Shown: piece by piece, positions 7,911 through 51,465 of the stretch
Layout: every line of letters starts with the position of its first letter
Position numbering within the stretch: position 1 is the first letter of the stretch
Origin: Albibacterium bauzanense
GTDB lineage: Bacteria > Bacteroidota > Bacteroidia > Sphingobacteriales > Sphingobacteriaceae
Length of the DNA: 64,000 nt
Direction: 5' to 3'
NCBI RefSeq assembly: GCF_004339765.1
Contig: NZ_SMGO01000001.1
Span: 186,001-250,000, forward strand
Made by a program: the position numbers and the translations under genes
Notes under the pieces: generated by a model
What the model saw: the letters and a program-made list of their open reading frames with translations, nothing else
What the model was told of the DNA's origin: nothing
Databases searched by the model: none

Positions 7911-8969
7911 ATGGAGAGAATATCTTTTAAAGAACTAACCGAACAAATCCTCAGAGGAAAATATTTATTCATTGCTTGTATGGTAGTATCTCTATTAATA
8001 GGTTTTTTTGTATATATGATTAAACCTAAAGAATACGCAAGTTCAATTGAGTTCCTCATCTCTAATAATGAGGAACAATCGAATGCTTCCCGTTTAGGTT
8101 CTTTAGCCTCTTTAGCAGGCATTAGTAGCAATTCATCTGCAGGTATACCTGTGTCGGCTTATGAGTTTATTCTATCAAGTACTAATTTTTTATCCGATGT
8201 TGTTGCAGAGAAGATCGTATTTGAAGGAGACACCATTTTTATATCCAATTATCTTACACAAAGAATGGTACTTGGTTTTAAGAATCAATTAAAAACATTA
8301 TCCGATGATGATAATTTAAAAGTAGTTTATAAGAATGTCATTGATTCAAATAATGCTTCAAAAATATCCAGGCTTTCTCCCGGAACATTGCCAGTATTGA
8401 TATTGAGTGGGGAAATTTCGCAAGCTGTAGGTATATTGAGAGGAAGTATTGTGTTTAGCAATGAAGCTCCCAAACCGATTCTCCTTACTGTAAAACTTCA
8501 AGACCCTGAAGCAAGTGCAAAAGTAGCAAAAGTAGTTCTCCAAAAACTAGAGGAATATATTAATCTATACAGTAAAGAAAACAAGATCGATAATACAGAT
8601 TTTCTTGAACAGGAAGTAGAAAAATCGAAACAAGAGCTTTATCAGCTACAGAATGCACTTGCAGCTGCTCAAGATAGAAATATCAATGCAAATAAAGCCA
8701 TTGCTAATTTAGAAATTGAGAGGTTAAATCTAAGATATTCTCAGGCTCGAAGCACTTATTCCGGACTTTTGGCACAGTTAGATAATTCAAAGATCCAAGT
8801 CGAAAACCAACGTCCTTTATTTATAATTATCGAAGCTCCGATACAGCTTAATGAGCTTTCTCCATCTGAACCACGTTTGGTAAATTATATAATATTATCA
8901 ATCATACTTGGTGTGTTTGTATCTTTAACTTTAATTTTTGCTAAAAGTTTTTTTGAAAGGAACCTATAA
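7911..8969 (+). CDS. wzz: Wzz-type polysaccharide chain-length determinant (co-polymerase)
   Basis: I use ATG 7911; an in-frame TTG at 7875 would overlap the previous gene. The protein (about 352 residues) has a transmembrane segment near residues 20-40 and a periplasmic domain with a long Gln/Ala-rich coiled coil (about 215-290). A second transmembrane segment at the C-terminus is preceded by the Pro-rich 'PSEPRLVNY' stretch typical of Wzz/PCP proteins. It has no C-terminal kinase domain, so it is the PCP-1 type that sets chain length with Wzy. The next gene, 2 bases downstream, is the predicted Wzy, which supports the call. Confidence 0.85.
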   Translation: MERISFKELTEQILRGKYLFIACMVVSLLIGFFVYMIKPKEYASSIEFLISNNEEQSNASRLGSLASLAGISSNSSAGIPVSAYEFILSSTNFLSDVVAEKIVFEGDTIFISNYLTQRMVLGFKNQLKTLSDDDNLKVVYKNVIDSNNASKISRLSPGTLPVLILSGEISQAVGILRGSIVFSNEAPKPILLTVKLQDPEASAKVAKVVLQKLEEYINLYSKENKIDNTDFLEQEVEKSKQELYQLQNALAAAQDRNINANKAIANLEIERLNLRYSQARSTYSGLLAQLDNSKIQVENQRPLFIIIEAPIQLNELSPSEPRLVNYIILSIILGVFVSLTLIFAKSFFERNL

Positions 8970-8971
8970 GA

Positions 8972-10237
8972 ATGTTGGAAGAAACAACTTTCTGGGAAAG
9001 AGCCAAACTTAGCCATGTCTTTTTGTTGCTTTTTTTTATATTTTCTGTAAAGTTTCTATTTATCCCTTTAAATAGTAGTCGTTTTGTAATATTAGGATGC
9101 TTTGTTACACTACTGATTATAAGAAGAAACGAACTGATCTTTTACTTTAATAAAAATGCTTTCAAAGCATTTTCCATTTTGGTTCTTTATGCTCTGTATA
9201 CCGCTATTATTACATTATTTAATGGTAGTGGAAATATGGCAAACCTGTTTGTGATTATCCTTTTATTATTTCAAATTGCTGGAGGAGCCTATCTATTGTC
9301 TGCCTTTTTTATAAAAGAAGATTTGAATCAACTGCTTTATTTATTGCTTCTTGTTTTTGGTATTCAGGGTATTCTTATATTTATTAATTTCATTTTTCCT
9401 GCATACAGAGAATTAATGTTCGTCATTATGCCTTTAGAGGGCAATATTACGGAAGATAGCATTACCTCAGTTTTTCGGACTAGGGGATTGATGCAATCAT
9501 CTGGGGCATCCGTTTCTGCCTATTTAGCTACCGGTTTATTAATGGGCGCCTATTTCCTGACCTCCTTTAAACTCTCCAAAATTGATAGACGTATTATAAT
9601 TGCCTGCCTGCTCTGTATTGTAATCGGAATCGTTTTTACAGGAAGAACAGGTTTTATTATGATACCTGTCGCCCTTTTAGCATACTATACCTTATTGATT
9701 ATCAATAATAAGTTTAGTTGGAAGAGCCTTCTCCTTTTAATATATATACCTATTGGTTCTGTTTTATTCTATTTTCTTATTAAGGAAATGTATATCCTTA
9801 TACAGCCTGAAGGGGAAATCATAATAAGAGCATGGGAAAAATGGGCTTTTGATCAATTCTTAGATAGCTTTAATGGTAGTTCGGGTAAATCAAACACATT
9901 GGCTGCTTTACGATCCTTTATTTTTCTTCCAGAAGATGATAGTCATTTATTATTTGGAGATCCGACAAGTTGGGGAGTAGTTCGGACAGATGTTGGCTAT
10001 ATCCGAATGATTTATGCTGTGGGTGTTATAGGAGCAATCTTATTTTATGCCGGTATTATAAGATTATATTTTTTCATGATGGCACACGCAAAAACATTAT
10101 CCATCCAAGTGTTTTACGGGTTTTTATTATTATGGGGGGTAATTATTGAATATAAAGAGCCTATGTTTTCTCATTTCTACTTTACTTCCACCATAGCTCT
10201 GATGGTATTTTTTAATATGAGAGAGGTCAAAGATTAA
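8972..10237 (+). CDS. wzy: Wzy-like polysaccharide/O-antigen polymerase
   Basis: The 421-residue integral membrane protein has roughly ten to eleven hydrophobic segments. One large extracytoplasmic loop near residues 280-335 is followed by 'DVGYIRMIYAVGVIGA', a pattern seen in Wzy/O-antigen ligase family proteins. Polymerases of this type link flipped repeat units at the periplasmic face. Sequence conservation in the family is poor, so the assignment rests on topology, the directly preceding wzz and the Wzx present in the same locus. WaaL-type ligase is the main alternative. Confidence 0.75.
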   Translation: MLEETTFWERAKLSHVFLLLFFIFSVKFLFIPLNSSRFVILGCFVTLLIIRRNELIFYFNKNAFKAFSILVLYALYTAIITLFNGSGNMANLFVIILLLFQIAGGAYLLSAFFIKEDLNQLLYLLLLVFGIQGILIFINFIFPAYRELMFVIMPLEGNITEDSITSVFRTRGLMQSSGASVSAYLATGLLMGAYFLTSFKLSKIDRRIIIACLLCIVIGIVFTGRTGFIMIPVALLAYYTLLIINNKFSWKSLLLLIYIPIGSVLFYFLIKEMYILIQPEGEIIIRAWEKWAFDQFLDSFNGSSGKSNTLAALRSFIFLPEDDSHLLFGDPTSWGVVRTDVGYIRMIYAVGVIGAILFYAGIIRLYFFMMAHAKTLSIQVFYGFLLLWGVIIEYKEPMFSHFYFTSTIALMVFFNMREVKD

Positions 10238-10286
10238 TTGGCATGGTTTTGTAGACCTATCATTGTTTTTGACTTCTTAAACTTTT

Positions 10287-12461
10287 ATGAACATGCATTC
10301 AAAAGAATTTAGAATCTTTTATATCGTATTTTTCCTGGTAACTATAGGCTTATATTCATGTTTTGCCCAAACTGCAAACAAATTAAAAATTAAGCATACG
10401 GTAGTTGCTCCGGTACCTAATTATTCAAAGAGTGGACAAAGCAGAGATCCACTTATCTTAATTGATGGAAAATTAGCAAGTCATAAAATTTTATGGTTGG
10501 ACAATAATACATTAGGATGGGAAAATTACGGTCAAATAACGATCGATCTGGAATTACAAGAAACCTCTTCAGTTTCTAAAATAGCTATTCATACAGCAAA
10601 GAATGAAGCAGCAGGGGTATATCTGCCGCTTAACATTAATATCTTTACCAGTATAGATGGAAATAATTATAGCTATGCCGGCGATATTAGTGGTTATGAT
10701 GAAAGTGCAGTCAATACATATAAAGCTGTCGAATTACAAAACGACAAGATTAATAGCAATGCTAAGTTTATTAAACTCGTTATAAATCCACAAGGAAGAA
10801 TGTTCTTCACGGATGAAATAACGATTACTGGTAAAAGTAAATCATTAAGTCTATTTCAATCTTCTAACATATTATCCAAGGGTCAACTTCAAAATATAAT
10901 TTCGAAGAATAAATCAGCAGAAATAAACCGCAGAGCCTTAATTGATAAACTCTACTCGATGACGGGAAATGCCAATAATAAGAATGAAATCAGGTTGCAG
11001 TTATTGAATGAAAAGGATTTAGCCAATCAACAAATTTATCAAAAATATCAATCTTTAATTTCGGGCTTATCAGTTTCTAAAAATACTGTTGAAGGGTTGA
11101 GTTTCGAAGTTTTATCTTCCCCTTGGGGTAATGGCAAAAGTGAGGGTAAGAGTAAACTTATACTTACTCCAACAAATGTAACACATTATGTTGCTGTTCG
11201 GGTCAAAAACAATCAAAACAAAGAGGTATCGAGTTCTTTTGTATTAAAAGGAATTAATAATATAGAAACCTCTGTATATGAAACTCAGGAAATTAATACA
11301 CGCAGTTCGAAAAATGTAAGTGATGTGTTGTTGCCTATTACTGTTAATAGTAAATTAGACTTCAATCCCGGAGAAACAAAAGTCCTAATACTTGCATTAA
11401 AGTCAAGTCAGGAAAGAAAATCAGCCATTAATTTATCTTTAACTGGCTCTAATGATCAGGCTTTGGTGATAGATTATCAATCTATTAATTTAGGGATTGA
11501 TAAAAACTATAAAAATACCCTTAATTTTAATGTTAATGTTTGGCCCTATTATACCTATCCCTTTTTTAAGGGTCGCGAACAGCAGATTAAACAGGATTTA
11601 GCCGATCATTATTCCAATATTTTTGTGATACCTGCTAAGGTTCTGGAGCCAAACAATATTACTACAAATCACAACAGTTTAATAAACTATCTTAAGAACT
11701 ATCAAGCAGGTGATAAGGTGATGCTGTTCATAAATCACAAAGGCTATGTAAAAAGTCCTGGCAACTATATGCAAGCTTCCTGGCAGAAGAAATTTCTAAC
11801 CTGGTATGATACTATCTATAAGATATTAAAAGATCATAATATTAGTGATCAGGATATCTATTTATATCCTTTTGATGAGATACGGGAGAATGAGCTGCCA
11901 TTGTTCAAATCTTTCGCAACATGGGTTAAATCTGTTCGTCCTCAATCACAAATATATCTAACTATTTATTATGAAAAGTTCCTTCCACAAGTTCAACCTC
12001 TCGCAGACGTTTATCAATTGTTAGTAAAAAGCAATGATTTGGGCTTAATTAAGCCTAATAAAGGCCATGAATTCTGGATTTATGATATCATGGATGATTC
12101 AAAAAATGTAGACCCTTATTCCCGCTATCGTTTATTAGCATGGAAAGCCTTTCAATATAATGCCCGAGGCATAGGGTTTTGGGCTTATGGTGATCAGTTT
12201 GGAAGTTCTGTATGGGATGATTTTGATGGCGGTCAAGGCGACTACAATGTGGTTTATGACAAAGGAAATTCTATTATACCAAGTAAAAGGTGGGAGGCAT
12301 TTAAACAAGGTGTAGAGGACTATTTTATTCTCAATAAATACCAGCAGAAATTCGGTGAAGCAGCTGCTAAGAAACTAGCATTGCAAGTACTCTCTGTACC
12401 AACTAATCAAGAAAAGGCAGAAGACATACGTAGGATTATGACACAGCAGCTTTCTAAATAA
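10287..12461 (+). CDS. Secreted discoidin-like plus DUF4091 protein (putative glycoside hydrolase)
   Basis: This 724-residue protein has an N-terminal export signal ending near YSCFAQ; a lipoprotein at that Cys is also possible. It is followed by a region resembling an F5/8 type C (discoidin) sugar-binding domain (about 35-190). The C-terminal third has the DUF4091 pattern: 'YLYPFDEIRENE', then 'WKAFQYNARGIGFWAYGDQ' and 'SKRWEAFKQGVEDYF'. DUF4091 proteins look like TIM-barrel glycosidases, and the acidic 'PFDE' loop is a plausible catalytic site. Its place between wzy and the glycosyltransferases suggests that it trims or remodels the exported polymer. No substrate is known. Confidence 0.7.
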   Translation: MNMHSKEFRIFYIVFFLVTIGLYSCFAQTANKLKIKHTVVAPVPNYSKSGQSRDPLILIDGKLASHKILWLDNNTLGWENYGQITIDLELQETSSVSKIAIHTAKNEAAGVYLPLNINIFTSIDGNNYSYAGDISGYDESAVNTYKAVELQNDKINSNAKFIKLVINPQGRMFFTDEITITGKSKSLSLFQSSNILSKGQLQNIISKNKSAEINRRALIDKLYSMTGNANNKNEIRLQLLNEKDLANQQIYQKYQSLISGLSVSKNTVEGLSFEVLSSPWGNGKSEGKSKLILTPTNVTHYVAVRVKNNQNKEVSSSFVLKGINNIETSVYETQEINTRSSKNVSDVLLPITVNSKLDFNPGETKVLILALKSSQERKSAINLSLTGSNDQALVIDYQSINLGIDKNYKNTLNFNVNVWPYYTYPFFKGREQQIKQDLADHYSNIFVIPAKVLEPNNITTNHNSLINYLKNYQAGDKVMLFINHKGYVKSPGNYMQASWQKKFLTWYDTIYKILKDHNISDQDIYLYPFDEIRENELPLFKSFATWVKSVRPQSQIYLTIYYEKFLPQVQPLADVYQLLVKSNDLGLIKPNKGHEFWIYDIMDDSKNVDPYSRYRLLAWKAFQYNARGIGFWAYGDQFGSSVWDDFDGGQGDYNVVYDKGNSIIPSKRWEAFKQGVEDYFILNKYQQKFGEAAAKKLALQVLSVPTNQEKAEDIRRIMTQQLSK

Positions 12462-12495
12462 TAAGGCTTCTCTACATTATACTCCATCGTTTTTG

Positions 12496-12525
12496 TTTGT
12501 TATATTGTATTTAATATTAATTTTG
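12496..12525 (+). promoter_or_regulatory. Probable internal promoter before the 12597 glycosyltransferase
   Basis: TAATTTTG at 12518-12525 is a full match to TAnnTTTG, with TTTG at 12496-12499 (18-base spacer) or 12492-12495 (22-base spacer). The gene-free gap of 135 bases here is one of the largest in the run, fitting a secondary promoter for the downstream genes. The leader to the ATG is about 65 bases. Confidence 0.45.
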
Positions 12526-12596
12526 CTGATAGATGTACGAAATATACCTAACCAACATTCTTTTTGAGAATGAAAAAATCGTTCGCTGAATAGATC

Positions 12597-13673
12597 ATGA
12601 AAATACTTTGTGTTATAGATAGCCTCGGTTCCGGTGGTGCACAAAAGCAATTAGTTGAGTTAGCCAAAGGTTTTCATGAAAAGGGACATCAAGTGTCTTT
12701 TCTTACCTATCACAATCTTGATTTCTTTAAAGAGGAATTAATAAAGAATAACATCACGGTACATTGTATTGAAGATCCCAGTTATTTAAAACGAGTATGG
12801 AAAATGCGAACCTTTATTCGCAGTGGCCGTTACGATGCTGTATTATCTTTTTTAGAAACTCCTAACTTTATCTGCGAAATAGCTGGTCTTCCATTCAGAA
12901 AATGGAAGCTTATTGTTGGTGAGAGAAGTGCTAACCCCAACATTGAAAAATCATTTAAACTAAAGTCATACAGGTGGTTTCATTTCCTTGCAGATTTTGT
13001 AGTGTCTAATTCGAATACAAATAGAGATATTGTAAAGAGGGTAAATCGATTGATTCCTTTGGAGAAATTGAAGGTTATTTATAATTTAGTCGATACAGGA
13101 AGTTATAAAACAATTAAAAGAAGTACTTCCCAGAATAGATTGGTTTTACTGATTGCTGCAAGCCATCAGAAACTAAAGAATTTAAACGGGTTAATTGAAG
13201 CAGTAAACCTGCTAACTGAAACTGAAAAGAGCAAACTTCGTATCCATTGGTATGGTGATGAAGCAGACTCCTCTTTTAATAATGCTAAAAATAAGATACA
13301 GAAATATAGCTTAGAAGATAACTTTGTTTTTTATAAGGCTACACAGGATATTAAAAACAGAATGTTGGAGGCCGATATAATAGGTTTATTTAGTTTTTAT
13401 GAAGGCTTTCCAAATACAATTTGCGAAGCAATGTCATTAGCTAGACCTGTTATATGCTCATCCGTATCAGATATACCATTGATAATGACTGATGCAAGAT
13501 ATTTATTTGACCCTAATAAAACCGATGAAATTGTTCAGGTTTTATCTGATGTTCTCAAATTAAACGATGTGGAATTGGACGCAATGGGAAAGGCAAATAA
13601 AGAAATTGCCAATTCGTTATTTGATAAAGAACAAATAGTTTCACAGTATTTGAATTTAATGCAACAGAAATGA
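12597..13673 (+). CDS. Family 4 glycosyltransferase
   Basis: The 358-residue GT-B protein begins '[18 protein letters not shown]', the classic GT4 N-terminal glycine loop. It has the C-terminal nucleotide-binding region '[24 protein letters not shown]' with the EX7E motif. It would act in the cytoplasm on the lipid-linked repeat unit. Its stop overlaps the start of the following acetyltransferase gene (ATGA at 13670-13673), showing tight translational coupling. Donor and acceptor are unknown. Confidence 0.92.
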
Positions 13674-14230
13674 GATTCATAGCCGTACTTGTTCTTAATT
13701 TATTTAGGGCTTATGATAGATTAATTATGATTCTATTTCGAAGCTTATTTAAATCTTGTGGAAAAAAAGTTCGATTTTTTCCAACGAAATCCGATTTCTA
13801 TTATCAAACTATCAGTATTGGAAGTGATGTTTTTATCGGAACCGGTGCTTCTTTTATTGCAACAAAGAGTTTTATAGAAATTGGGAATAAAGTAATGTTT
13901 GGCCCCAATGTTACAATACGAGGAGGCAATCATTCAACACATATTATTGGGAAATACATGGCTGATTATACTCCTAAAGATAAACTCAAGACAGATGATC
14001 AACCTGTTATTATTGAAGATGATGTATGGGTTGGAACGGGCGTTATTATTTTAAAAGGAGTTCGCATTGGACAGGGTGCAATTATTGCTGCGGGTGCTGT
14101 AGTAACTAAAGATGTGGAAAAATATGCAATTGTTGGAGGTATTCCGGCCAAAAGATTAAAGTATAGATGGACTGATGAAGAGATAAAACAGCATGAATTA
14201 ATAGTAAACTCTGAATACAAATCTAAATGA
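13670..14230 (+). CDS. Hexapeptide-repeat (left-handed beta-helix) O-acetyltransferase
   Basis: The 186-residue protein has the LbH repeat pattern (for example '[21 protein letters not shown]') and the likely catalytic His in '[11 protein letters not shown]'. The C-terminal '[11 protein letters not shown]' is found in WcaF/CatB-like acetyltransferases. It would transfer acetyl from acetyl-CoA to a sugar hydroxyl during repeat-unit assembly. It overlaps both flanking glycosyltransferase genes by four bases, so the three are probably made in equal amounts and act on the same unit. Confidence 0.85.
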
Positions 14231-36043: not shown

Positions 36044-36078
36044 TTATTGCATTATTTACCAATTAGCTATTGATAATT

Positions 36079-37974
36079 ATGTTCAAGAAATTATACCAAA
36101 ATTTTAGCCGACTCTACGATAAGCAAATCGACGCAAAAGGTTTAGCTCTATTCAGAATAGCCTTTGCACTGGTTTTGCTCGGAGAAGTAATACAGCTCTA
36201 TTATTTCAGGCATTTAACCTTTGATAAAATTCCCTATGTAGTTCCCGGCGAAATAGAAATGTGGCCGGTTCTCTTATTTTGGATGGGTGCCTTGATATTT
36301 GTAATCTTAGGGTTATTTACCAGAACAGCAGCCATTATAAATTATATTTTAACAGTAGTTGTTGTTGGTACTATCTCGTCTTTTGAATATCACATGTTTT
36401 ATTCATACCTAATCATCAGCTTTCTGTTTATGTTCTTGCCTTTATCCAAAACATTTTCGCTTGATCGCTTAATTTTAAAACTAAAATATTCAAATACCCG
36501 CTTTCGATACAATCCACCACAAACAGTTTCTGTATTGGCATATTATCTCCCTCTTCTGATGGGAATAGGTTTTGTCTATTTTGATTCATTATTTTTCAAG
36601 TATACATCTCACCTTTGGTTAAACGGTTTGGGAATGTGGTTACCTGCATCTATGCCTCAAGCGGTCTTATTTGATATAAGCTTCCTCTTAAATATTAAGT
36701 TTTTAGTAATAGCTCTCGGCTACATTACTTTAATCTTTGAAACTATTTTTCTGTTTACATTCTGGAAAAAAAAATGGCGGATTCCTGTATTAATTGTAGG
36801 TATTGGTCTGCATATTGGCATATTAATTTGCTTTCCAATACCCTTTTTTGCATTAGGAGTAATTGTTCTTTATTTATTAATGATTCCTGTTAGTTTCTGG
36901 GAGAAGATCTTTAATAGAAATAAAGAAGCAAAAAAGAGACTCCAATTTTACTATGATGGAGAATGCCCATTATGTAACCGAACCCGTATAGTCATCAATC
37001 ATTTTGATTCACGTAATAGCATTGAGTTTTTGACCGTACAGGAAAACGCCAAAAAACAAGCAGCATTAGCCAATATATCCATGGATAAGCTCCTGGATGA
37101 TATTCATTCTGTAAATAATAAAGGAAAAGTTTTCGTTGGTTTTGACACCTATATCCAGGTTTTTAATGCTATCTGGTATTTAAAACCCTTATCTTGGATT
37201 TTACAGATACCAGGAATATACCATCTAGGAACAAAAACTTATAAATACATTGCAAGCAACCGCACAACAGAACGATGTACAGAAGATAACTGTGGCTATG
37301 TGTTGCCTGAATTACCAGCGAATGATGCTCGTTTTAAAATCCTAACTAATTATTCGATGAGAGACCTAAAGATTGGTTCTATTTATTTAGGTTTAATAAT
37401 ATTAACATTACTTCAAATTTGTGTTACTTACAACTCGCCACTTATATTTCAGACTTATAATAGATTAGGCATCTCAGATTCTAGAATAATTAGACTTTCA
37501 AAGCAAATCACTACAAGTGTATTTGTTCCAGCAAAGACATTCTTTGGGATTACTCACCATGCAGTTTTTATGGATAGCCATTTTAAAGGATATAATCATT
37601 CAATTGCCGTTTTGTATAAAACACCCGATGGTAATGAAGCTTGGTTACCATTTACTGGCCCTGACGGTATACCAGGTAATTATTTATTCGGTCCTAATTG
37701 GATTAAATGGACATTTAGAACCAATTCACCACTTGTAAATCAAAGTCTATTACAAACAAGTATTCGTGATTTCACAGCTTTCTGGGCACATAAAAATGGT
37801 ATTAACCTAGACGATGCTGAATTTTTAATAAAAGTCAAGAAAAACGAAGACCCTACGGAATGGGAATATGACTTCTTGCATAAACAACTGGCCAATCCTT
37901 GGTTAGATGGAGGGACTGTTCAGTGGAGAAACAAAGAATTCTCCTCCGATATTAAGAACATAGAAGAATTATAA
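36079..37974 (+). CDS. HTTM domain plus DCC1-like thiol-disulfide oxidoreductase fusion membrane protein
   Basis: I use ATG 36079; TTG at 36070 is in frame. The protein (about 631 residues) starts with an HTTM region (about 1-280, eight or so membrane helices, start 'DAKGLALFRIAFALVLLGE'), as found in vitamin-K gamma-carboxylase-like proteins. A DCC/DUF393 domain follows with 'FYYDGECPLCN', a CxxC motif near residues 295-298. Another membrane helix lies near 430-455, and a soluble C-terminal domain closes the protein. HTTM-DCC proteins occur in many Bacteroidota, but their substrate is unknown. A membrane redox or modification role is inferred. Its last 14 codons are duplicated downstream of the next gene. 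Confidence 0.78.
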   Translation: MFKKLYQNFSRLYDKQIDAKGLALFRIAFALVLLGEVIQLYYFRHLTFDKIPYVVPGEIEMWPVLLFWMGALIFVILGLFTRTAAIINYILTVVVVGTISSFEYHMFYSYLIISFLFMFLPLSKTFSLDRLILKLKYSNTRFRYNPPQTVSVLAYYLPLLMGIGFVYFDSLFFKYTSHLWLNGLGMWLPASMPQAVLFDISFLLNIKFLVIALGYITLIFETIFLFTFWKKKWRIPVLIVGIGLHIGILICFPIPFFALGVIVLYLLMIPVSFWEKIFNRNKEAKKRLQFYYDGECPLCNRTRIVINHFDSRNSIEFLTVQENAKKQAALANISMDKLLDDIHSVNNKGKVFVGFDTYIQVFNAIWYLKPLSWILQIPGIYHLGTKTYKYIASNRTTERCTEDNCGYVLPELPANDARFKILTNYSMRDLKIGSIYLGLIILTLLQICVTYNSPLIFQTYNRLGISDSRIIRLSKQITTSVFVPAKTFFGITHHAVFMDSHFKGYNHSIAVLYKTPDGNEAWLPFTGPDGIPGNYLFGPNWIKWTFRTNSPLVNQSLLQTSIRDFTAFWAHKNGINLDDAEFLIKVKKNEDPTEWEYDFLHKQLANPWLDGGTVQWRNKEFSSDIKNIEEL

Positions 37975-37983
37975 AAACTGAAC
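37929..37983 (+). repeat. 55-bp direct repeat, copy 1 (native 3' end of the HTTM-DCC gene)
   Basis: It matches 39811-39865 at 51 of 55 positions. It covers the last 14 codons and stop of the HTTM-DCC gene plus 9 bases. Both differences inside the coding part are synonymous (AAC/AAT, TCC/TCT). Confidence 0.95.
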
Positions 37984-38045
37984 TAGATAGTGTCAATTCT
38001 TAGAGATATACAACAGGAATATCAGATTATTAATAGTGTATAGTT

Positions 38046-39800
38046 ATGTCAGATTTAATTTTTTATTCAAAAAATAGTTATTTTTCAGAGGATCACTATA
38101 CTATAGGTACAAGTACATTTACAGGTGGGGCAGCCTCAGCATCTCGAACTATATTCTTCGATTATATTATTCCAACAAAAATTAGTATTAATAAAATTAA
38201 TGTTGCTGTAAATGGAAATGGTCTATTGTATATTAAAAAATTTACTAAATCTGCAGATGGTTCAACATATATTTTTAAACAGCAGATACAAATTAAAGTT
38301 GTAGCAGGAATTAATAATATAGAAATACTGGAACCTCTATCGTATTCAAATGATGATATTATTGCTGTATTTACTGTTGCAAATATAAAGTTCTTAACTG
38401 GTGCTACATGGAGTCCATATAAGTATGAGTCTACTGGATTAAATGTCTCCAGTGATATATTAACATCAAATTTAATATCAAGTTCTGCCAACCTATTAAT
38501 ATCATTTGAGGTTTCCACACTATTAGTTGCAAATAGAGGTAATGTATTTGATAGGGAAGAATCTAGAAATACTCTTTTTTTAGATGATGACTATACTTCA
38601 TTGTTATATTATGATTCTGATGAATATAGAGATGCATTAGGACGGAGAAAATATGCTGAACCTGTTGGGTTGAATTTTAAATGGGAGTTTAAAGGAAGCT
38701 TGGGGTTGGATGATGTATCTAAATCTACAGGTTTTACTTCTGGATTAATATCAGAAATGTATGATTCTGGAAATAGTTATACTGTTGATATGGGGTTGTC
38801 CTATTTAGCTTATTTGCAATTTGACAACCCTAAATCATTGAATTCTTTTAATTTCTCGATGGAGATTTTTGAGTTTGAATTAACTAGATTTAGCAGCAAT
38901 TCCGCAATATCATCTATTTTCTGTGGTCAAACACTTTATAGCAGAAAATTAGCTCATACTTCCACCTTTTATCCTGGAAATGGTGGTGAAATAAGAATTC
39001 TTGAAGGCAGGATGGAAACTCAAAGTTTCACAATCGGGGCACGTGCATATTTCCCACTTAGTCCTGTAATAGGTCAAGAATTTCGAATAGTGCAGAAATT
39101 TAATGGAAGAACGATCTTTTTTGAACTGTATCAGAAAGCTGGCCAAGATTATAAATTACTGTCTAATATAACTTTTAGCTATGGTGATGGTGAGAATAGA
39201 CCTTCAAATAGGAAGCTAGGAATTATGTTATATGATGTAGGTGTTAAAATAACGAAGTACGAGAACTATAGTTTTGAGCCTTTGGTAACAAGATTATTGT
39301 TTATTGGAGATAGCATACAATCCGGTTTTTCTTGTTCTGATTTTTCAAAATCATATACCAGATTAGCATCAAGATGGAATGGTATAGCTGGAAGTGTGAG
39401 ATCAGGTCACGGTTGTACAACAGATGACTTTATGCCTATGATACCAGAAATATTAGAAAGAAAACCTGAAGTTGTTATATTAGGTCTAGGTCTTAATGAT
39501 ATTAGATATGGAGTTATTGATTATCAGCTAAAGTATAAAAGTATAGTCGATCAATTATATAATATCGGCACAAAAGTTATATTATGCAATTTGATTCCAA
39601 ATAATGTTGATGATGTATTGCCATTTAATACATGGCAACAAGTAACATTTGGAGCGGATTATATCATAGTAAATTATTATGATTTAATGAAGGACCCCAG
39701 TAATCCTACGAAATTAAATCCTTTATATAGTACAGATGGTACACATCCAAATGACTATGGTAATTTATTAATGTTTAATAGATTAAAGCAATATTTATAA
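38046..39800 (+). CDS. SGNH/GDSL-type esterase with large N-terminal beta-rich region, inserted gene
   Basis: This 584-residue protein has a C-terminal SGNH hydrolase domain: 'FIGDSIQSG' near residue 418 (block I Ser), a Gly in 'RSGHG', 'LGLGLNDIRYG' near 480 (block III Asn) and 'DGTHPNDYG' near 564 (Asp/His). The first 410 residues are rich in Ser, Asn and Tyr and look beta-stranded. There is no signal peptide. Such domains remove acetyl or acyl groups from sugars. The gene looks more AT-rich than its neighbours and lies between direct repeats of the neighbour's tail, so it was probably acquired. A long beta-rich N-terminus without a signal resembles phage tail-spike deacetylases, but this is inference. 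Confidence 0.82.
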   Translation: MSDLIFYSKNSYFSEDHYTIGTSTFTGGAASASRTIFFDYIIPTKISINKINVAVNGNGLLYIKKFTKSADGSTYIFKQQIQIKVVAGINNIEILEPLSYSNDDIIAVFTVANIKFLTGATWSPYKYESTGLNVSSDILTSNLISSSANLLISFEVSTLLVANRGNVFDREESRNTLFLDDDYTSLLYYDSDEYRDALGRRKYAEPVGLNFKWEFKGSLGLDDVSKSTGFTSGLISEMYDSGNSYTVDMGLSYLAYLQFDNPKSLNSFNFSMEIFEFELTRFSSNSAISSIFCGQTLYSRKLAHTSTFYPGNGGEIRILEGRMETQSFTIGARAYFPLSPVIGQEFRIVQKFNGRTIFFELYQKAGQDYKLLSNITFSYGDGENRPSNRKLGIMLYDVGVKITKYENYSFEPLVTRLLFIGDSIQSGFSCSDFSKSYTRLASRWNGIAGSVRSGHGCTTDDFMPMIPEILERKPEVVILGLGLNDIRYGVIDYQLKYKSIVDQLYNIGTKVILCNLIPNNVDDVLPFNTWQQVTFGADYIIVNYYDLMKDPSNPTKLNPLYSTDGTHPNDYGNLLMFNRLKQYL

Positions 39801-39810
39801 TGAAGCATAA

Positions 39811-39865
39811 AAATAAAGAATTCTCTTCCGATATTAAGAACATAGAAGAATTATAAATACTCAAC
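39811..39865 (+). repeat. 55-bp direct repeat, copy 2 (duplicated gene tail)
   Basis: This second copy of the HTTM-DCC gene tail encodes the same final 14 residues and stop but has no gene body in front. It lies just before the start of the SDR gene at 39867, where the native tail would have been before the SGNH gene was inserted. Confidence 0.95.
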
Positions 39866-39866
39866 A

Positions 39867-40712
39867 ATGGAAAAAGCATTAATCATTGGTATCAATAGTT
39901 TTTTAGGCGAAGCGATTTATAAGCAGCTGAAAGGCGTTTATCATGTTACTGGTATATACAATAGAAGTAAAGAGAATATTCCTGAGGATATCAAAGCAAT
40001 ACAGGTTGATGAAATTGATAGTTTAGAAGGAACCGAATTTAAACACATCTATCTGGTTAGTTCTTTTATCCCTACTGGGGATAAAAGCATCGAAGATGAA
40101 AATCTCATTCATGCGAACCTGCTCTTACCTGCAAAAGTAAGCAAGCTATTTCCACAATCCCGAATAGTTTTCTGTTCCAGTGTATCTGTTTATGAAAACT
40201 CAGCGAATACAAAGGATATTTCAGCAAAACAAGCACCGACACCCTATTCAAAATATGCACTTAGCAAATTATGGGGTGAGCGTAGCATTGAAAGTCATTC
40301 TTCCTATGCAATCATACGAATCTCATCCATGTACGGTATTGGCATGAAAAAGATAACCTTTCTCCCTAAAATCATAGAAAATGCTTTATCTTTCGGTGAA
40401 ATTAAGCTTTTGGGTAAAGGAGAGCGATTGCAAAATTATATCCATGTAGATGATGTCGCGAAAATTGCTATCAAAGCAGCTCATCAAGATGATAATTTTA
40501 CCATCCATGCTGTGAGCGAACATTCGTATTCAAATAAAGAAATTGCAGAAAGAATTGCAGAGATTACTCCATGTAAACTTATATTAACAGGAGAAGATAA
40601 TTCCAAATCATTTAGCTATGATAGTTCTTTCACCAAAGAAAAATTGGGTATCATCAATTATAAAAAAATAGAAGAAGGAATAAAAGAGATTATTGAATGG
40701 ATCAAAAAGTAG
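39867..40712 (+). CDS. NAD-dependent epimerase/dehydratase family protein (SDR)
   Basis: This 281-residue extended SDR protein has 'LIIGINSFLGEAIY' (cofactor loop), 'VFCSSVSVYE' and 'YSKYALSKLWGE' (YxxxK), plus 'LQNYIHVDDVAKIA'. It is shorter than typical nucleotide-sugar epimerases and more like the reductase/epimerase proteins found in O-antigen loci. It overlaps the ATP-grasp gene by 16 bases, and the two are probably co-translated. The likely role is a reduction or epimerisation of a keto-deoxy sugar in the amino-sugar module that ends at 44110. Confidence 0.8.
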   Translation: MEKALIIGINSFLGEAIYKQLKGVYHVTGIYNRSKENIPEDIKAIQVDEIDSLEGTEFKHIYLVSSFIPTGDKSIEDENLIHANLLLPAKVSKLFPQSRIVFCSSVSVYENSANTKDISAKQAPTPYSKYALSKLWGERSIESHSSYAIIRISSMYGIGMKKITFLPKIIENALSFGEIKLLGKGERLQNYIHVDDVAKIAIKAAHQDDNFTIHAVSEHSYSNKEIAERIAEITPCKLILTGEDNSKSFSYDSSFTKEKLGIINYKKIEEGIKEIIEWIKK

Positions 40713-41674
40713 TATTAGTAACCGGTATCGGAGGGAACGTAGGTCAGGGGATTATTCGAAATATAAGAACATTACAATTGCCAATAAAGGTTGTAGGCTG
40801 CAATGTAACCGAATTCTCTGCCGGCAATCATCTATGCGATAAATTTCATCTGGTGCCATTTTCATACGAAGAAGAGTTTATTCCAGAAATAATCAAGATA
40901 GTTGAAAAGGAGAAAATCGATCTGATCATCCCTTCAACAGACTATGAAGTATATTATTTAGCAAAACACGCTAATCGTATTCCATGTATCATAGCTACCT
41001 CTGCTTTTGAAACAACTGAAATCTATTTAGATAAATACAAATCATTCCTACATCATCAAAAACACGACATCCCCTTTGCTAAAGCATACCTGCCTTCTAA
41101 TTACAACAATGAATTTGCTGAATTTATAGCAAAACCAAGAGAGGGCAGAGGATCGAGGGGTTTAGCTATTAATCCACCATCCTATAAAGATTTCTCAGAT
41201 GAATATATGATCCAGGAACTTTTCAAAGGAATTGAAATAACCACTGCTTTTTACGTAAACAAGCAAAATAAGCTACATGGCTTTATTAACCTTGAACGTA
41301 AATTAGACAATGGAGCAACCAATGAATGCCGGGTCAATAGAGCCTATGATGAACAGCTAGAAGTTATCTTAGAGAAGATCATTCGAAATTCTAATATAAA
41401 GGGCAGTGCAAACCTGCAGTCCATCGTTACGCCAGAGGGAGAAATTATGCCTTTTGAAGTTAACTGCCGCATATCAGGCACCAATTCAATCCGCTCTAAT
41501 TTTGGTTTTGAGGATGTGAAGTATACGTTGGAAGAATATTTATATAATTCACCACTTTCTGAACCTAAAATTATAGATGGTGTCGCTATCCGGATCATGA
41601 TGGATGTTATTTATCCCAATCAGGAGTCAAATTCAAGTTTATCAGATAATTCCAGTAAACATTTTATCTATTAA
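40697..41674 (+). CDS. ATP-grasp ligase, CarB/PylC-like
   Basis: The 325-residue protein starts with a Rossmann-like 'VTGIGGNVGQGIIRNI' pre-ATP-grasp domain. The ATP-grasp fold follows with 'FIAKPREGRGSRGL' (nucleotide loop) and 'MPFEVNCRISGTNS' (Mg-binding Glu/Asn). Enzymes of this kind use ATP to form a carboxyl phosphate and then an amide or similar bond. In a sugar locus, the likely task is joining a carboxylate (amino acid or other acid) to an amino sugar. It is followed after 6 bases by a HAD protein, a pairing seen in other surface-glycan loci. The substrate is not known. Confidence 0.8.
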   Translation: MDQKVVLVTGIGGNVGQGIIRNIRTLQLPIKVVGCNVTEFSAGNHLCDKFHLVPFSYEEEFIPEIIKIVEKEKIDLIIPSTDYEVYYLAKHANRIPCIIATSAFETTEIYLDKYKSFLHHQKHDIPFAKAYLPSNYNNEFAEFIAKPREGRGSRGLAINPPSYKDFSDEYMIQELFKGIEITTAFYVNKQNKLHGFINLERKLDNGATNECRVNRAYDEQLEVILEKIIRNSNIKGSANLQSIVTPEGEIMPFEVNCRISGTNSIRSNFGFEDVKYTLEEYLYNSPLSEPKIIDGVAIRIMMDVIYPNQESNSSLSDNSSKHFIY

Positions 41675-41680
41675 TCAATT

Positions 41681-42331
41681 ATGGACAAATTAAAATACGA
41701 AGTTGTTCTCTTTGATGCAGCCAATACCTTAATACACAAGCCTGCTTTATGGGATAACATGATCCGTGTATTGAAAGATCATGGTCAGGATATAAATCAA
41801 GCTGAGTTAAGAAAAAAGCATAAACTGATCTCGGAAATAATTCATTTCCCCGATCGTACCAATTCTGACTTCTATAGAAAATTCAATAAGGAGCTTCTTT
41901 TATCTTTAGGGATTATTCCGGACGACACACTTTTAGATGATATCTTTAATGCCTGCACCTACCTTCCTTGGCAAGCTTTTGAAGATACCGAATACTTGAA
42001 AGAGATCAATCTTCCAAAAGCAATTCTCTCTAACTTCAATTCTTCTTTAAAAGACCATTTGGATACTTTATTCGGTGAGAATGTATTCAGCGAAATCATC
42101 GGATCGGAAAAGGAAAAAGTAGGTAAACCCAGTGTTGAGTTCTATCAACGTGCCCTTGAAATATTAGCTATTGAGCCAGCAAAAATATTATATGTCGGTG
42201 ATTCGCTGAAGCTGGATGTTATACCTGCGAAATCACTTGGAATTGATGCCTGGCTGATAGACAGAGATGATAATTTTACTTACTTTGATAAACGAATAAC
42301 ATCCTTAAATGAACTAAAAGATATTATTTAA
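41681..42331 (+). CDS. HAD-superfamily hydrolase (HAD-IA)
   Basis: The 216-residue protein has all four HAD motifs: I 'VLFDAANTLIHKP', II 'AILSNFNSSL', III Lys in 'EKVGKPSVEF', and IV 'ILYVGDSLKLDV'. Motif I reads DxAxT, so the second Asp used as acid/base by most HAD phosphatases is Ala. DxA/DxY-type motifs occur in dehalogenase-like and HDHD3-like members. It lies between the ATP-grasp gene and the NeuD-like gene and probably works with the ATP-grasp enzyme, but the reaction is unknown. Confidence 0.85.
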   Translation: MDKLKYEVVLFDAANTLIHKPALWDNMIRVLKDHGQDINQAELRKKHKLISEIIHFPDRTNSDFYRKFNKELLLSLGIIPDDTLLDDIFNACTYLPWQAFEDTEYLKEINLPKAILSNFNSSLKDHLDTLFGENVFSEIIGSEKEKVGKPSVEFYQRALEILAIEPAKILYVGDSLKLDVIPAKSLGIDAWLIDRDDNFTYFDKRITSLNELKDII

Positions 42332-42337
42332 AAGGGA

Positions 42338-42970
42338 ATGAAAAGACTAGCCATTATTGGATCCGGAGATCTAGGTCAGCAAATAGCATATCATGCTCAA
42401 ACTGATAATCATTATGAGGTTATCGGCTTTTTTGATGACTTTAGAAATAAAGGAGAGCGAATTAACGATTTGCCAATCTTAGGAAAAACCAATGCTATTA
42501 TTGATGCTTTTCAACAAAAAATTTTTGATGAATTGTTAATTGGAATAGGCTATAAACATCTCGTCTTTAAAAGAGAAATCTATCAAAAATTTAAGAATAA
42601 AATCCCATTCGGAAAATTAATTCATTCAAGTTCTATTCTTGATTCTTCTAGTATAATCAAGGAAGGTGTAGTTATTTACCCCGGTTGTATAATCGACCAG
42701 CAGGTTATAATAGAAGAAAACACATTAATAAATGTAGGTTGCTGTATAGCGCATGATACAAAGATAGGTGCACATTCTTTTCTTTCTCCGCGAGTAGCCA
42801 TTGCTGGTTTTGTAAAGGTTGGAGAGTCCTGCATTTTAGGAATCAATTCTACTATTATTGATAATATCCAGTTGGTTAATAATACTCAAATAGGAGGGGG
42901 AGCCGTTGTAATAAAAAACATAGAACAAGAAGGTTTATATGTTGGCAATCCTGTAAGATTTATAAGATAA
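42338..42970 (+). CDS. NeuD/PglD-type sugar acetyltransferase
   Basis: The 210-residue protein has the two-part PglD layout. An N-terminal Rossmann-like domain ('LAIIGSGDLGQQIAYHA', 'IGFFDDF') is followed by a left-handed beta-helix ('GVVIYPGCIIDQQVIIEENTLINVG', split over repeats, and 'GAHSFLSPRVAIAG') with a likely catalytic His in 'CIAHDTKIG'. PglD and WeeI N-acetylate UDP-4-amino sugars. The next gene is a 4-keto-sugar aminotransferase, so this enzyme probably N-acylates its product. It could also supply the missing LegH step for legionaminic acid. Confidence 0.82.
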   Translation: MKRLAIIGSGDLGQQIAYHAQTDNHYEVIGFFDDFRNKGERINDLPILGKTNAIIDAFQQKIFDELLIGIGYKHLVFKREIYQKFKNKIPFGKLIHSSSILDSSSIIKEGVVIYPGCIIDQQVIIEENTLINVGCCIAHDTKIGAHSFLSPRVAIAGFVKVGESCILGINSTIIDNIQLVNNTQIGGGAVVIKNIEQEGLYVGNPVRFIR

Positions 42971-42976
42971 AACAAT

Positions 42977-44110
42977 ATGATACCATTTAACAAACCATAT
43001 TTAACCGGAAAGGAAGCACATTACCTGTACGATGCAGTTTATACAGGCAAACTATCGGGCAATGGAAAATATACGCAGAAGTGCCAGAACTTTTTGAAAG
43101 AACAATATGGATTCGGCAAGTGCCTATTAACCACGTCTTGTACAGATGCTTTAGAAATGGCGGCTATATTAATTGATATACAGCCTGGTGATGAAGTCAT
43201 CATGCCATCCTATACCTTCGTTTCGACCGCTAATGCTTTTGTTTTAAGAGGTGCTAAGGTCGTATTTGCTGATAGCAGAAAAGATCATCCGGGAATTGAT
43301 GAAGACCTATTAGAAGCGTTAATAAATAGTAAAACCAAAGCCATTGTTCCAGTACATTATGCAGGTGTAGCTTGTGATATGGATAAGATCATGGATATCG
43401 CAAACAAGCATAATCTGTTTGTCATAGAAGATGCAGCACAGGCTATCGATAGTTTTTATACTGGGAAAGACGGTATTAAAAGAGCATTGGGTTCTATTGG
43501 CCACCTTGCAGCCTTTTCCTTTCATGAAACCAAGAACATCATTGCAGGTGAAGGAGGGATGTTAGCTATCAATGATCCTCAATTTGAAAAGCGTGCTGAA
43601 ATTATATGGGAAAAGGGAACTAACCGTTCCGCATTCTTCAGAGGTGAAGTAGATAAATATGGCTGGGTAGATATGGGATCTTCATTTTTGCCTTCTGAAC
43701 TAATATCAAGCTTTCTATGGGCTCAAATTGAAAACATACAAGATATTCAAAAAGTAAGGGTCGAGCACTGGAATCAATATTACGATGGGTTAAATGAATG
43801 GGTAACCAAACAAGAGATACAAGTACCGAAGATCCCTGATTCTGCAACCAATAATGCTCATATGTTTTACATAGTCTGTAAAGACGGAGAGCAGCGTGCT
43901 GAAATATTAAACAAACTAAAAAGCAATGACATCTATGCTGTTTTTCATTATTTAAGCCTTCATACCAGCCCGTTTTATGCTGAAAAACATGATGGAAGGC
44001 ATTTACCTGTGACTGATCATTATTCAGAATGTTTGATCAGACTACCCATGTATTATGAATTGGAAGATACACAGATAGAGAAAATCATACAAATCTTAAC
44101 CTCTTCTTAG
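42977..44110 (+). CDS. wecE: dTDP-4-amino-4,6-dideoxygalactose transaminase, WecE/RffA type
   Basis: The 377-residue DegT-family aminotransferase begins 'MIPFNKPYLTGKE' and has 'TTSCTDALEMAAILI', 'MPSYTFVSTANAFVLRGA', 'IEDAAQAI' and 'FSFHETKNIIAGEGGML' with the PLP Lys after HET. These features separate WecE/RffA from LegC and PglE types. It aminates C4 of dTDP-4-keto-6-deoxyglucose. No RmlA or RmlB is in the window, so the dTDP-sugar must come from genes elsewhere. Its stop is one base from the end of the convergent gene at 44112. Confidence 0.88.
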   Translation: MIPFNKPYLTGKEAHYLYDAVYTGKLSGNGKYTQKCQNFLKEQYGFGKCLLTTSCTDALEMAAILIDIQPGDEVIMPSYTFVSTANAFVLRGAKVVFADSRKDHPGIDEDLLEALINSKTKAIVPVHYAGVACDMDKIMDIANKHNLFVIEDAAQAIDSFYTGKDGIKRALGSIGHLAAFSFHETKNIIAGEGGMLAINDPQFEKRAEIIWEKGTNRSAFFRGEVDKYGWVDMGSSFLPSELISSFLWAQIENIQDIQKVRVEHWNQYYDGLNEWVTKQEIQVPKIPDSATNNAHMFYIVCKDGEQRAEILNKLKSNDIYAVFHYLSLHTSPFYAEKHDGRHLPVTDHYSECLIRLPMYYELEDTQIEKIIQILTSS

Positions 44111-49626: not shown

Positions 49627-51465
49627 TTATTGGTATTTATTGATTAATTTATCTAAGAGTGTCATAAAATCAGCGTCGAGGTCTTTTGCCATTTCAACTG
49701 CCCCATACACATTTAGATGACTTTGGTCATAATACATAAGTGTATCTTTATAAAATGGAGGCGAGTTAAAAACCTTGCTTTTTGAGAGATCATAGTAATA
49801 TACATTATCATATTTATTAACAATCTCTTCAATAAGTTCCTTGTTTCGTGATCTGTCACTAACCTGAAATTTAAAATCAGTTGATTTTACAATAGATTTA
49901 TTTACTCGGACAGGATTCCGACCAATAATAGGAAAAGTATTTAAGATTATTAAGCTTTGGTTTGATCGTAAGTTTTTTGCAAAATTATTTAAGGCTATTT
50001 TCATTGATGGCAGTCTGTCAAACCCTATACTATTAATAATTATTATATCATTTTTAGCTACCTCTATTAATGTAGTGTCAATAAAAGTTTGAGCAATCTC
50101 ATAATTAATAGCACTATATGCAGGAACCTCTTCTCTGATGACCCCTCCAATAGATGGATAACCTGATGTTGTAATTGTTCTAAATGAAAAATTATTTTGT
50201 TTGCCAATATAATCCAAAAAAGGCTTGATAGCTAAAGCATGACTATCTCCAAAAAGAAATATCCTATCATACGTAGGTGATGCATTTCCAAATGTTTCAA
50301 TATTCTTTTTCCCATTTGATTCTGTCCCAAAAGTTGGCATAATATATTCGTCTGGCATTGCACTTTTCTTAGCAAGTACAGGAATAGTAAACGCAAGCAC
50401 CAGGAGGAATACAACTACAGGAGAAAAGGATAAAATAAATTTCTTATTCCCTGTAGTTCTAAAGACGTTTTCAATAAATGTATAAGAAAGCCATGCTAGA
50501 ACATAAGTCGAAACTGAGATGAATAGTATTTCATATACCGTAAAATCATAAGCCACATTCATTCCTTCTTGATATCTCATGAATGCCATAATAGGCCAGT
50601 GCCATAAATATAATGAATATGAAAGTTCTCCGATATGAACCATCACCTTTTTCGAAAGTAAGTCCGAGAATATATTTTTCTCGGAGATTAACAGTAATCC
50701 AGTACCGATAGTTGGGATTAATGCTAATACGCCAGGAAATGTGGATTGTCCAGTCATAAAGATTGCACTACCAAATATAGCCAAAAGACCTATCGTGCTG
50801 ATTATAAGACTATTATTCTTATTAATTGGCTTTCGTTTTAAAAAAATCAAACTCAATAGTGATCCGACAAAAAATTCAGGCATTCTTGCTAAAAGAGAAA
50901 AATACATACTTGATGTAGCATGATTAACCATCATTTGATAGGTGCTATATCCCGTAAACAAGATGATTAATCCACCCATAACATAGGGCAGGTATTTATT
51001 TTTTATGAATATTATAAGTAATGGTAGTATAAAATAGAATTGCATTTCTATTGATAATGACCAGGTGTGCAATAATGGGTTATCACTTAATCCTACCCCA
51101 AAATAAGATTCGCCTCTTGCAAATACAATATTGGATATGAATAAGGCGGAGCCTAAAATCGAACCTCTTAGGGTTTTTATATCATAATAAAGATATACGA
51201 AGTATACAGCAATTAATACAAAGATGACTAGGATAAAATGTGCAGGAACAATCCGCTTAATTCTTTTCTCATAGAATGTTAAGAAGCTGAAAGTACCTTT
51301 TGCCTTTTGATGCATCAAGATGGATGTAATGAGATAGCCTGATATTACAAAAAATATGTCTACCCCAATGAAGCCACCAGGAAGCCAAGAATGATTTAAA
51401 TGAAAAATAAAGACAAAAAGAAAGGCTAAAGCTCTTAGCCCTTGGATATCATTTCTGAATTGCAT
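49627..51465 (-). CDS. OafA/OatA-type acyltransferase 3 with C-terminal SGNH domain
   Basis: The 612-residue protein has an N-terminal acyltransferase-3 membrane domain of about ten helices ('MQFRNDIQGLRALAFLFVF', 'GVDIFFVISGYLI', 'FYEKRIKRIVPAHF'). A periplasmic SGNH-like domain from about residue 390 has 'IFLFGDSHALAIKPF' and 'YYDQSHLNVYGA' with Asp/His. OafA and OatA O-acetylate surface polysaccharides or peptidoglycan in this way, passing acetyl across the membrane. It probably acetylates the polymer of this locus. It stands alone on the minus strand and diverges from the pseB relic. Confidence 0.92.
   Translation of the reverse strand: MQFRNDIQGLRALAFLFVFIFHLNHSWLPGGFIGVDIFFVISGYLITSILMHQKAKGTFSFLTFYEKRIKRIVPAHFILVIFVLIAVYFVYLYYDIKTLRGSILGSALFISNIVFARGESYFGVGLSDNPLLHTWSLSIEMQFYFILPLLIIFIKNKYLPYVMGGLIILFTGYSTYQMMVNHATSSMYFSLLARMPEFFVGSLLSLIFLKRKPINKNNSLIISTIGLLAIFGSAIFMTGQSTFPGVLALIPTIGTGLLLISEKNIFSDLLSKKVMVHIGELSYSLYLWHWPIMAFMRYQEGMNVAYDFTVYEILFISVSTYVLAWLSYTFIENVFRTTGNKKFILSFSPVVVFLLVLAFTIPVLAKKSAMPDEYIMPTFGTESNGKKNIETFGNASPTYDRIFLFGDSHALAIKPFLDYIGKQNNFSFRTITTSGYPSIGGVIREEVPAYSAINYEIAQTFIDTTLIEVAKNDIIIINSIGFDRLPSMKIALNNFAKNLRSNQSLIILNTFPIIGRNPVRVNKSIVKSTDFKFQVSDRSRNKELIEEIVNKYDNVYYYDLSKSKVFNSPPFYKDTLMYYDQSHLNVYGAVEMAKDLDADFMTLLDKLINKYQ

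Follow-up and report, generated by a model that had tools for sequence, protein, structure and literature searches.

A gene for an SGNH/GDSL hydrolase of 584 aa (positions 38046-39800, forward strand, of the 64,000-nucleotide stretch of DNA analysed here, referred to as the window) appears from sequence comparison to have been inserted at the junction between an HTTM-like/DCC1 gene and an SDR gene, with duplication of the junction itself. This reading is drawn from a direct repeat on both sides of the SGNH gene, the adjacency of the HTTM-like/DCC and SDR genes in relatives, the deviant codon usage of the SGNH gene and the finding that its residues 1-410 are unmatched in other genomes of the phylum. 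We consider that the SGNH gene was probably acquired horizontally as a single gene and inserted by illegitimate joining with duplication of the target, and we give this reading a probability of roughly 0.55.

All the genes of the locus discussed below are read on the forward strand. The HTTM-like/DCC1 gene (36070-37974; 634 aa from a TTG start in the ORF list, examined with Pfam) is intact, and its last 14 codons and stop together with the following spacer form copy 1 of the repeat (37929-37983). The insert comprises 1827 bp, namely a 62-bp leader upstream of the SGNH start (37984-38045), the SGNH gene including its stop, and 10 bp. At the DNA level the leader does not significantly resemble the HTTM-like gene or any other part of the genome, and its fold is unremarkable. 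Copy 2 (39811-39865) contains the tail and spacer without a gene body and ends one base from the start of the SDR gene (NAD-dependent epimerase/dehydratase; 39867-40712), its stop being located 10 bp upstream of that start. Both copies encode NKEFSSDIKNIEEL followed by a stop. In copy 1 this is the genuine 3' terminus of the 36070-37974 ORF, in agreement with the initial annotation, which had described copy 2 as the same last 14 residues and stop lacking a body. At the right junction, an 18-codon ORF, MKHKNKEFSSDIKNIEEL (39800-39856), was read by eye; its ATG and the stop of the SGNH gene overlap (TAATG), and its C-terminal end is the tail of the old gene. The remaining conserved cluster (40697-44110) encodes ATP-grasp, HAD, PglD-like and DegT aminotransferase proteins, the HAD gene being named by eye from its sequence, outside the Pfam scan.

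The ORF list gives two ORFs of 80 aa or longer for the insert, the SGNH gene and a 118-aa antisense ORF within it. In line with the earlier statement that no transposase is involved, none was seen in this list. The name HTTM-DCC given to the neighbouring gene is borne out by Pfam for the DCC part, as a search to E 0.1 identifies a DCC1-like domain only, with no match to the HTTM family (PF05090) in the N-terminal half. Since Pfam finds only the DCC1-like domain, 'HTTM-like' is kept here merely for continuity of naming.

The two copies of the 55-bp direct repeat are identical at 51 positions, as previously reported, and are spaced 1882 bp apart. The four mismatches occur at positions 4, 16, 48 and 52, two of them among the 45 coding positions and two among the 10 spacer positions, and the longest perfect run is 31 bp. 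A search of the 3.08-Mb genome with positions 37900-38045 returned the query itself and copy 2 (E 7e-17), a match well beyond chance for this genome, with the remainder at E 0.2 or worse. Self-BLAST of the window identified no other same-strand repeat of 28 bp or more with an identity of at least 80%. In 464 kb, comprising the window and twenty sampled 20-kb stretches of the same genome, six direct-repeat pairs were found at E 1e-6 or better with their copies within 8 kb of each other, and the SGNH-flanking pair alone includes the 3' end of an ORF of at least 100 aa. Elsewhere in the genome (5266-12562 of the stretch C1:400001-420000), three copies of a sequence of roughly 52-73 bp were observed within about 7 kb, 88-92% alike and away from the 3' end of any ORF of at least 100 aa. 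Ten inverted-repeat pairs of 20 nt or longer were found, and none of them links both ends of the insert. When the core of the repeat (37933-37975) was extended outwards, similarity on the right continued above chance through the spacer (P 0.006 against random window pairs), and the 4 bp on the left were marginal (P 0.05). Because of these marginal bases, the firm repeat is 37933-37983, with 48 of 51 positions identical, and the difference at position 4 sits in a doubtful end.

Gene order was compared in nine relatives (loci L045-L049 and L065-L068), relatives with partial matches of 31% identity (G034, G733, G764) and weaker ones being outside this comparison. The HTTM-like/DCC gene directly precedes the SDR gene in five of the nine, at spacings of -11 to +9 bp calculated from mechanical ORF starts (L045, 5 bp; L046, an overlap of 11 bp; L048, 6 bp; L065, 2 bp; L067, 9 bp), which supports the claim that the SGNH gene was inserted into an HTTM/DCC-SDR junction. 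In L065, a locus from the same family with 52% HTTM identity, the order HTTM-SDR-ATP-grasp-HAD-PglD-DegT is that of the window minus SGNH. No match to the SGNH protein was found at any of the nine loci, L045-L049 being searched by tblastn (E 1e-3) and the ORFs of L065-L068 by blastp (E 1e-2). Neither the HTTM-like nor the ATP-grasp protein found a match in the genus mate (G001). The adjacency in relatives, together with the stop of copy 2 only 10 bp before the SDR gene, a gap that the initial annotation had predicted for the empty form, supports an insertion; against it stand the remaining four relatives (L047, L049, L066, L068), where the HTTM-like/DCC gene is elsewhere in the cluster and away from the SDR gene, and the donor and the exact empty site, neither of which was found.

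Several further features of the related clusters were observed. The HTTM-like gene is split across two frames in L045 and broken by a stop in L067. The similar clusters of L048 (three, 7986-13738) and L049 (two, 7986-11762) contain HTTM-like/DCC paralogues in tandem, with 36-41% identity to the HTTM-like protein of the window. A gene of about 310-320 aa is located between the HAD and PglD genes in six of the nine relatives (L045, L046, L047, L048, L049 and L067), with no such gene at this place in the window (42331-42338) or in L065. Upstream of the cluster in genome G127 (L065/L071), a 196-bp stretch is repeated about 1.85 kb apart with the copies 96% alike, one copy being inside a 170-aa ORF and the second between listed ORFs. 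The repeat pairs found in L048 (inside two HTTM-like genes), in L065 (further upstream) and in L068 (two stretches 53 bp apart) flank no insert at the HTTM gene.

The initial annotation had proposed a comparison of GC content and codon usage between 38046-39800 and its flanks, and the comparison sets the SGNH gene apart. Among the 54 genes of the window (59 ORFs minus five overlapping antisense ORFs), its codon usage is the most deviant (z 5.3; the next gene has 4.4) and its GC3 of 0.192 is the lowest, its overall GC of 0.308 being low but not the lowest. SGNH/GDSL hydrolases carry the catalytic blocks GDS, G, GxND and DxxH, and the corresponding blocks were found here at residues 421 (GDS), 454 (GHG), 482 (GLND) and 564 (DGTHP). 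The SGNH domain is C-terminal, and Pfam Lipase_GDSL_2 matches residues 419-573 with 43.5 bits against a gathering cut-off of 32.9. Matches to the SGNH protein were found in 56 of 301 genomes of the family, its own included, and all of those besides itself begin at residue 323 or later with 25-32% identity. For residues 1-410 there is no match in 394 other genomes of the phylum, the genome itself being the only one of 395; the genome samples behind the SGNH and HTTM searches overlap and their totals are not additive. The viral-contig scan revealed no relatives and plasmids were without a match. Three phage records match weakly (26% identity, only from residue 399 on), and one PHROG lipase family matches residues 456-582 (E 3e-7). 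Matches to PDB entries are weak (E 0.02 or worse), and AlphaFold2 applied to the SGNH protein alone gave a mean pLDDT of 35. By analogy with the family and from the context of the gene, its product is probably an esterase that takes acyl groups off a surface sugar, or off a related substrate or precursor. The same region of the window also encodes an acyltransferase-3 protein with a fused SGNH domain (49627-51465, reverse strand).

In the reading that we prefer, the SGNH gene would have been gained horizontally as a single gene, entering a conserved polysaccharide operon between its HTTM-like/DCC and SDR genes, and the insertion would have copied some 51-55 bp of the junction, consisting of the last 14 codons, the stop and the spacer. 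A junction duplicated in this way would leave the HTTM-like/DCC gene with its true end and the SDR gene with its native upstream DNA, so that both could still be expressed. The joining may have been illegitimate, for example by a template switch returning about 55 bases upstream of its departure point or, alternatively, by a staggered break that was filled in, and the two copies may subsequently have diverged by drift. Their difference at four of 55 positions would mean either that the event is old or that the two tails were originally different alleles. Illegitimate insertion is favoured because one event suffices and no pre-existing neighbourhood of SGNH gene and tail is required.

The main and serious rival, which we nevertheless hold to be somewhat unlikely, is homologous integration, in which SGNH DNA adjacent to a diverged HTTM tail allele, carried by a circular molecule or coming from a sister strain, recombined in the tail and left hybrid copies on both sides. 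The 31-bp perfect run within the repeat would suit such recombination, and the denser differences in the spacer than in the coding part lean slightly towards two selected alleles. The initial annotation had further read the synonymous differences as a sign that copy 2 derives from a diverged allele under selection. Both coding differences are indeed synonymous; however, since one third of the possible transitions in the coding stretch of the repeat are synonymous, a two-out-of-two result would arise by chance with a probability of about 0.11, and the difference at position 4 falls in the marginal end of the repeat, so that the pattern is suggestive of purifying selection but not strong. The premise that the tail is a conserved site for recombination was not supported by the comparison with 11 homologous proteins from eight loci (L067 left out). 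Only 44 of 154 residues are identical over the last 14 positions (2-7 of 14 in each protein) compared with 33-52% in the body, and the tail is less conserved than the body in nine of the eleven, the exceptions being L049b (6 of 14 vs 35%) and L066 (7 of 14 vs 40%). With a tail that is not specially conserved, any donor that recombined there would need to be a nearly identical allele with the SGNH gene already adjacent, which only shifts the origin of the arrangement back by one step. In addition, a single 55-bp homology leaves both junctions unexplained unless the donor was circular or the arrangement existed beforehand. The mechanism first suggested, capture of the segment by recombination at the gene tail, is only partly supported, in that the insertion with its junction duplicate stands and the premise of a conserved tail finds no support.

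Two other explanations were considered. Copy 2 might be all that is left of a second HTTM gene in tandem, its body having given way to the SGNH gene, as the tandem paralogues of L048 and L049 could suggest, but this appears improbable: the insert contains nothing significant that is HTTM-derived (best tblastn E 0.15), the tails of the two paralogues in L049 differ (DFSSTILPVEQQ vs DFSSSILPVEDL) while those in the window are 93% identical as DNA, and a replacement stopping exactly 14 codons before the stop requires an extra event. Integrase att sites are known to leave duplicated gene 3' ends, and the duplicated gene end seen here has that appearance. Site-specific insertion through a trans-acting recombinase, whether integron-like, Xer/dif-like or by an integrase at an att site in the gene 3' end, is nonetheless very improbable, as no recombinase is seen among the ORFs listed for the insert, five single-strand folds (four of repeat copies and one of the leader) have z values of only -1.2 to 0.9, and a dif-like pattern, searched as a consensus, has 13 matches in the genome, compared with 16 when the control pattern (reversed) is used, and none at the repeat. 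Moreover, no second gene-end repeat was found in the 464 kb of genome scanned. Beyond the insertion itself, it may be asked whether gene 3' ends in such operons are landing sites for transposase-free single-gene units and whether the insertion was shaped so that the overlap of the SGNH stop with the 18-codon tail ORF couples translation into the SDR gene; taken jointly, we regard these two ideas as highly improbable.

Insertion with duplication of the target, the reading that we favour, has a described counterpart. Insertion with long target duplication was reportedly described by Nobusato et al. 2000 (Gene 259:99), in work that is said to have involved no transposase. This type of insertion is described mainly for restriction-modification genes (PMC1643837, PMC4978471, PMC3031569). 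As presented there, a gene is found between direct copies of its target and is recognised by means of another genome, the cargo being restriction-modification genes and the comparison being between two strains of Helicobacter pylori. The present SGNH gene likewise has a direct repeat on both sides, of 55 bp with 51 identical, and its insertion can be seen as resembling the described form with a different cargo. On the other hand, here the cargo is an SGNH gene in a polysaccharide locus, the copies differ at four of 55 positions and the comparison is at the species level only. A narrow search of open-licence papers found no published account of an SGNH insertion at an HTTM/DCC-SDR junction.

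O-antigen and capsule clusters are known for the gain of foreign, AT-rich single genes within a conserved operon, and the SGNH gene would fit this pattern. Such exchange usually occurs through longer shared flanks, whereas only about 55 bp are shared here. With a mechanism that has published precedent, the event would be unexceptional, the insertion of one gene into a gene cluster that changes rapidly. It would nevertheless illustrate clearly how modifying enzymes can enter surface-sugar clusters gene by gene while the operon remains unbroken.
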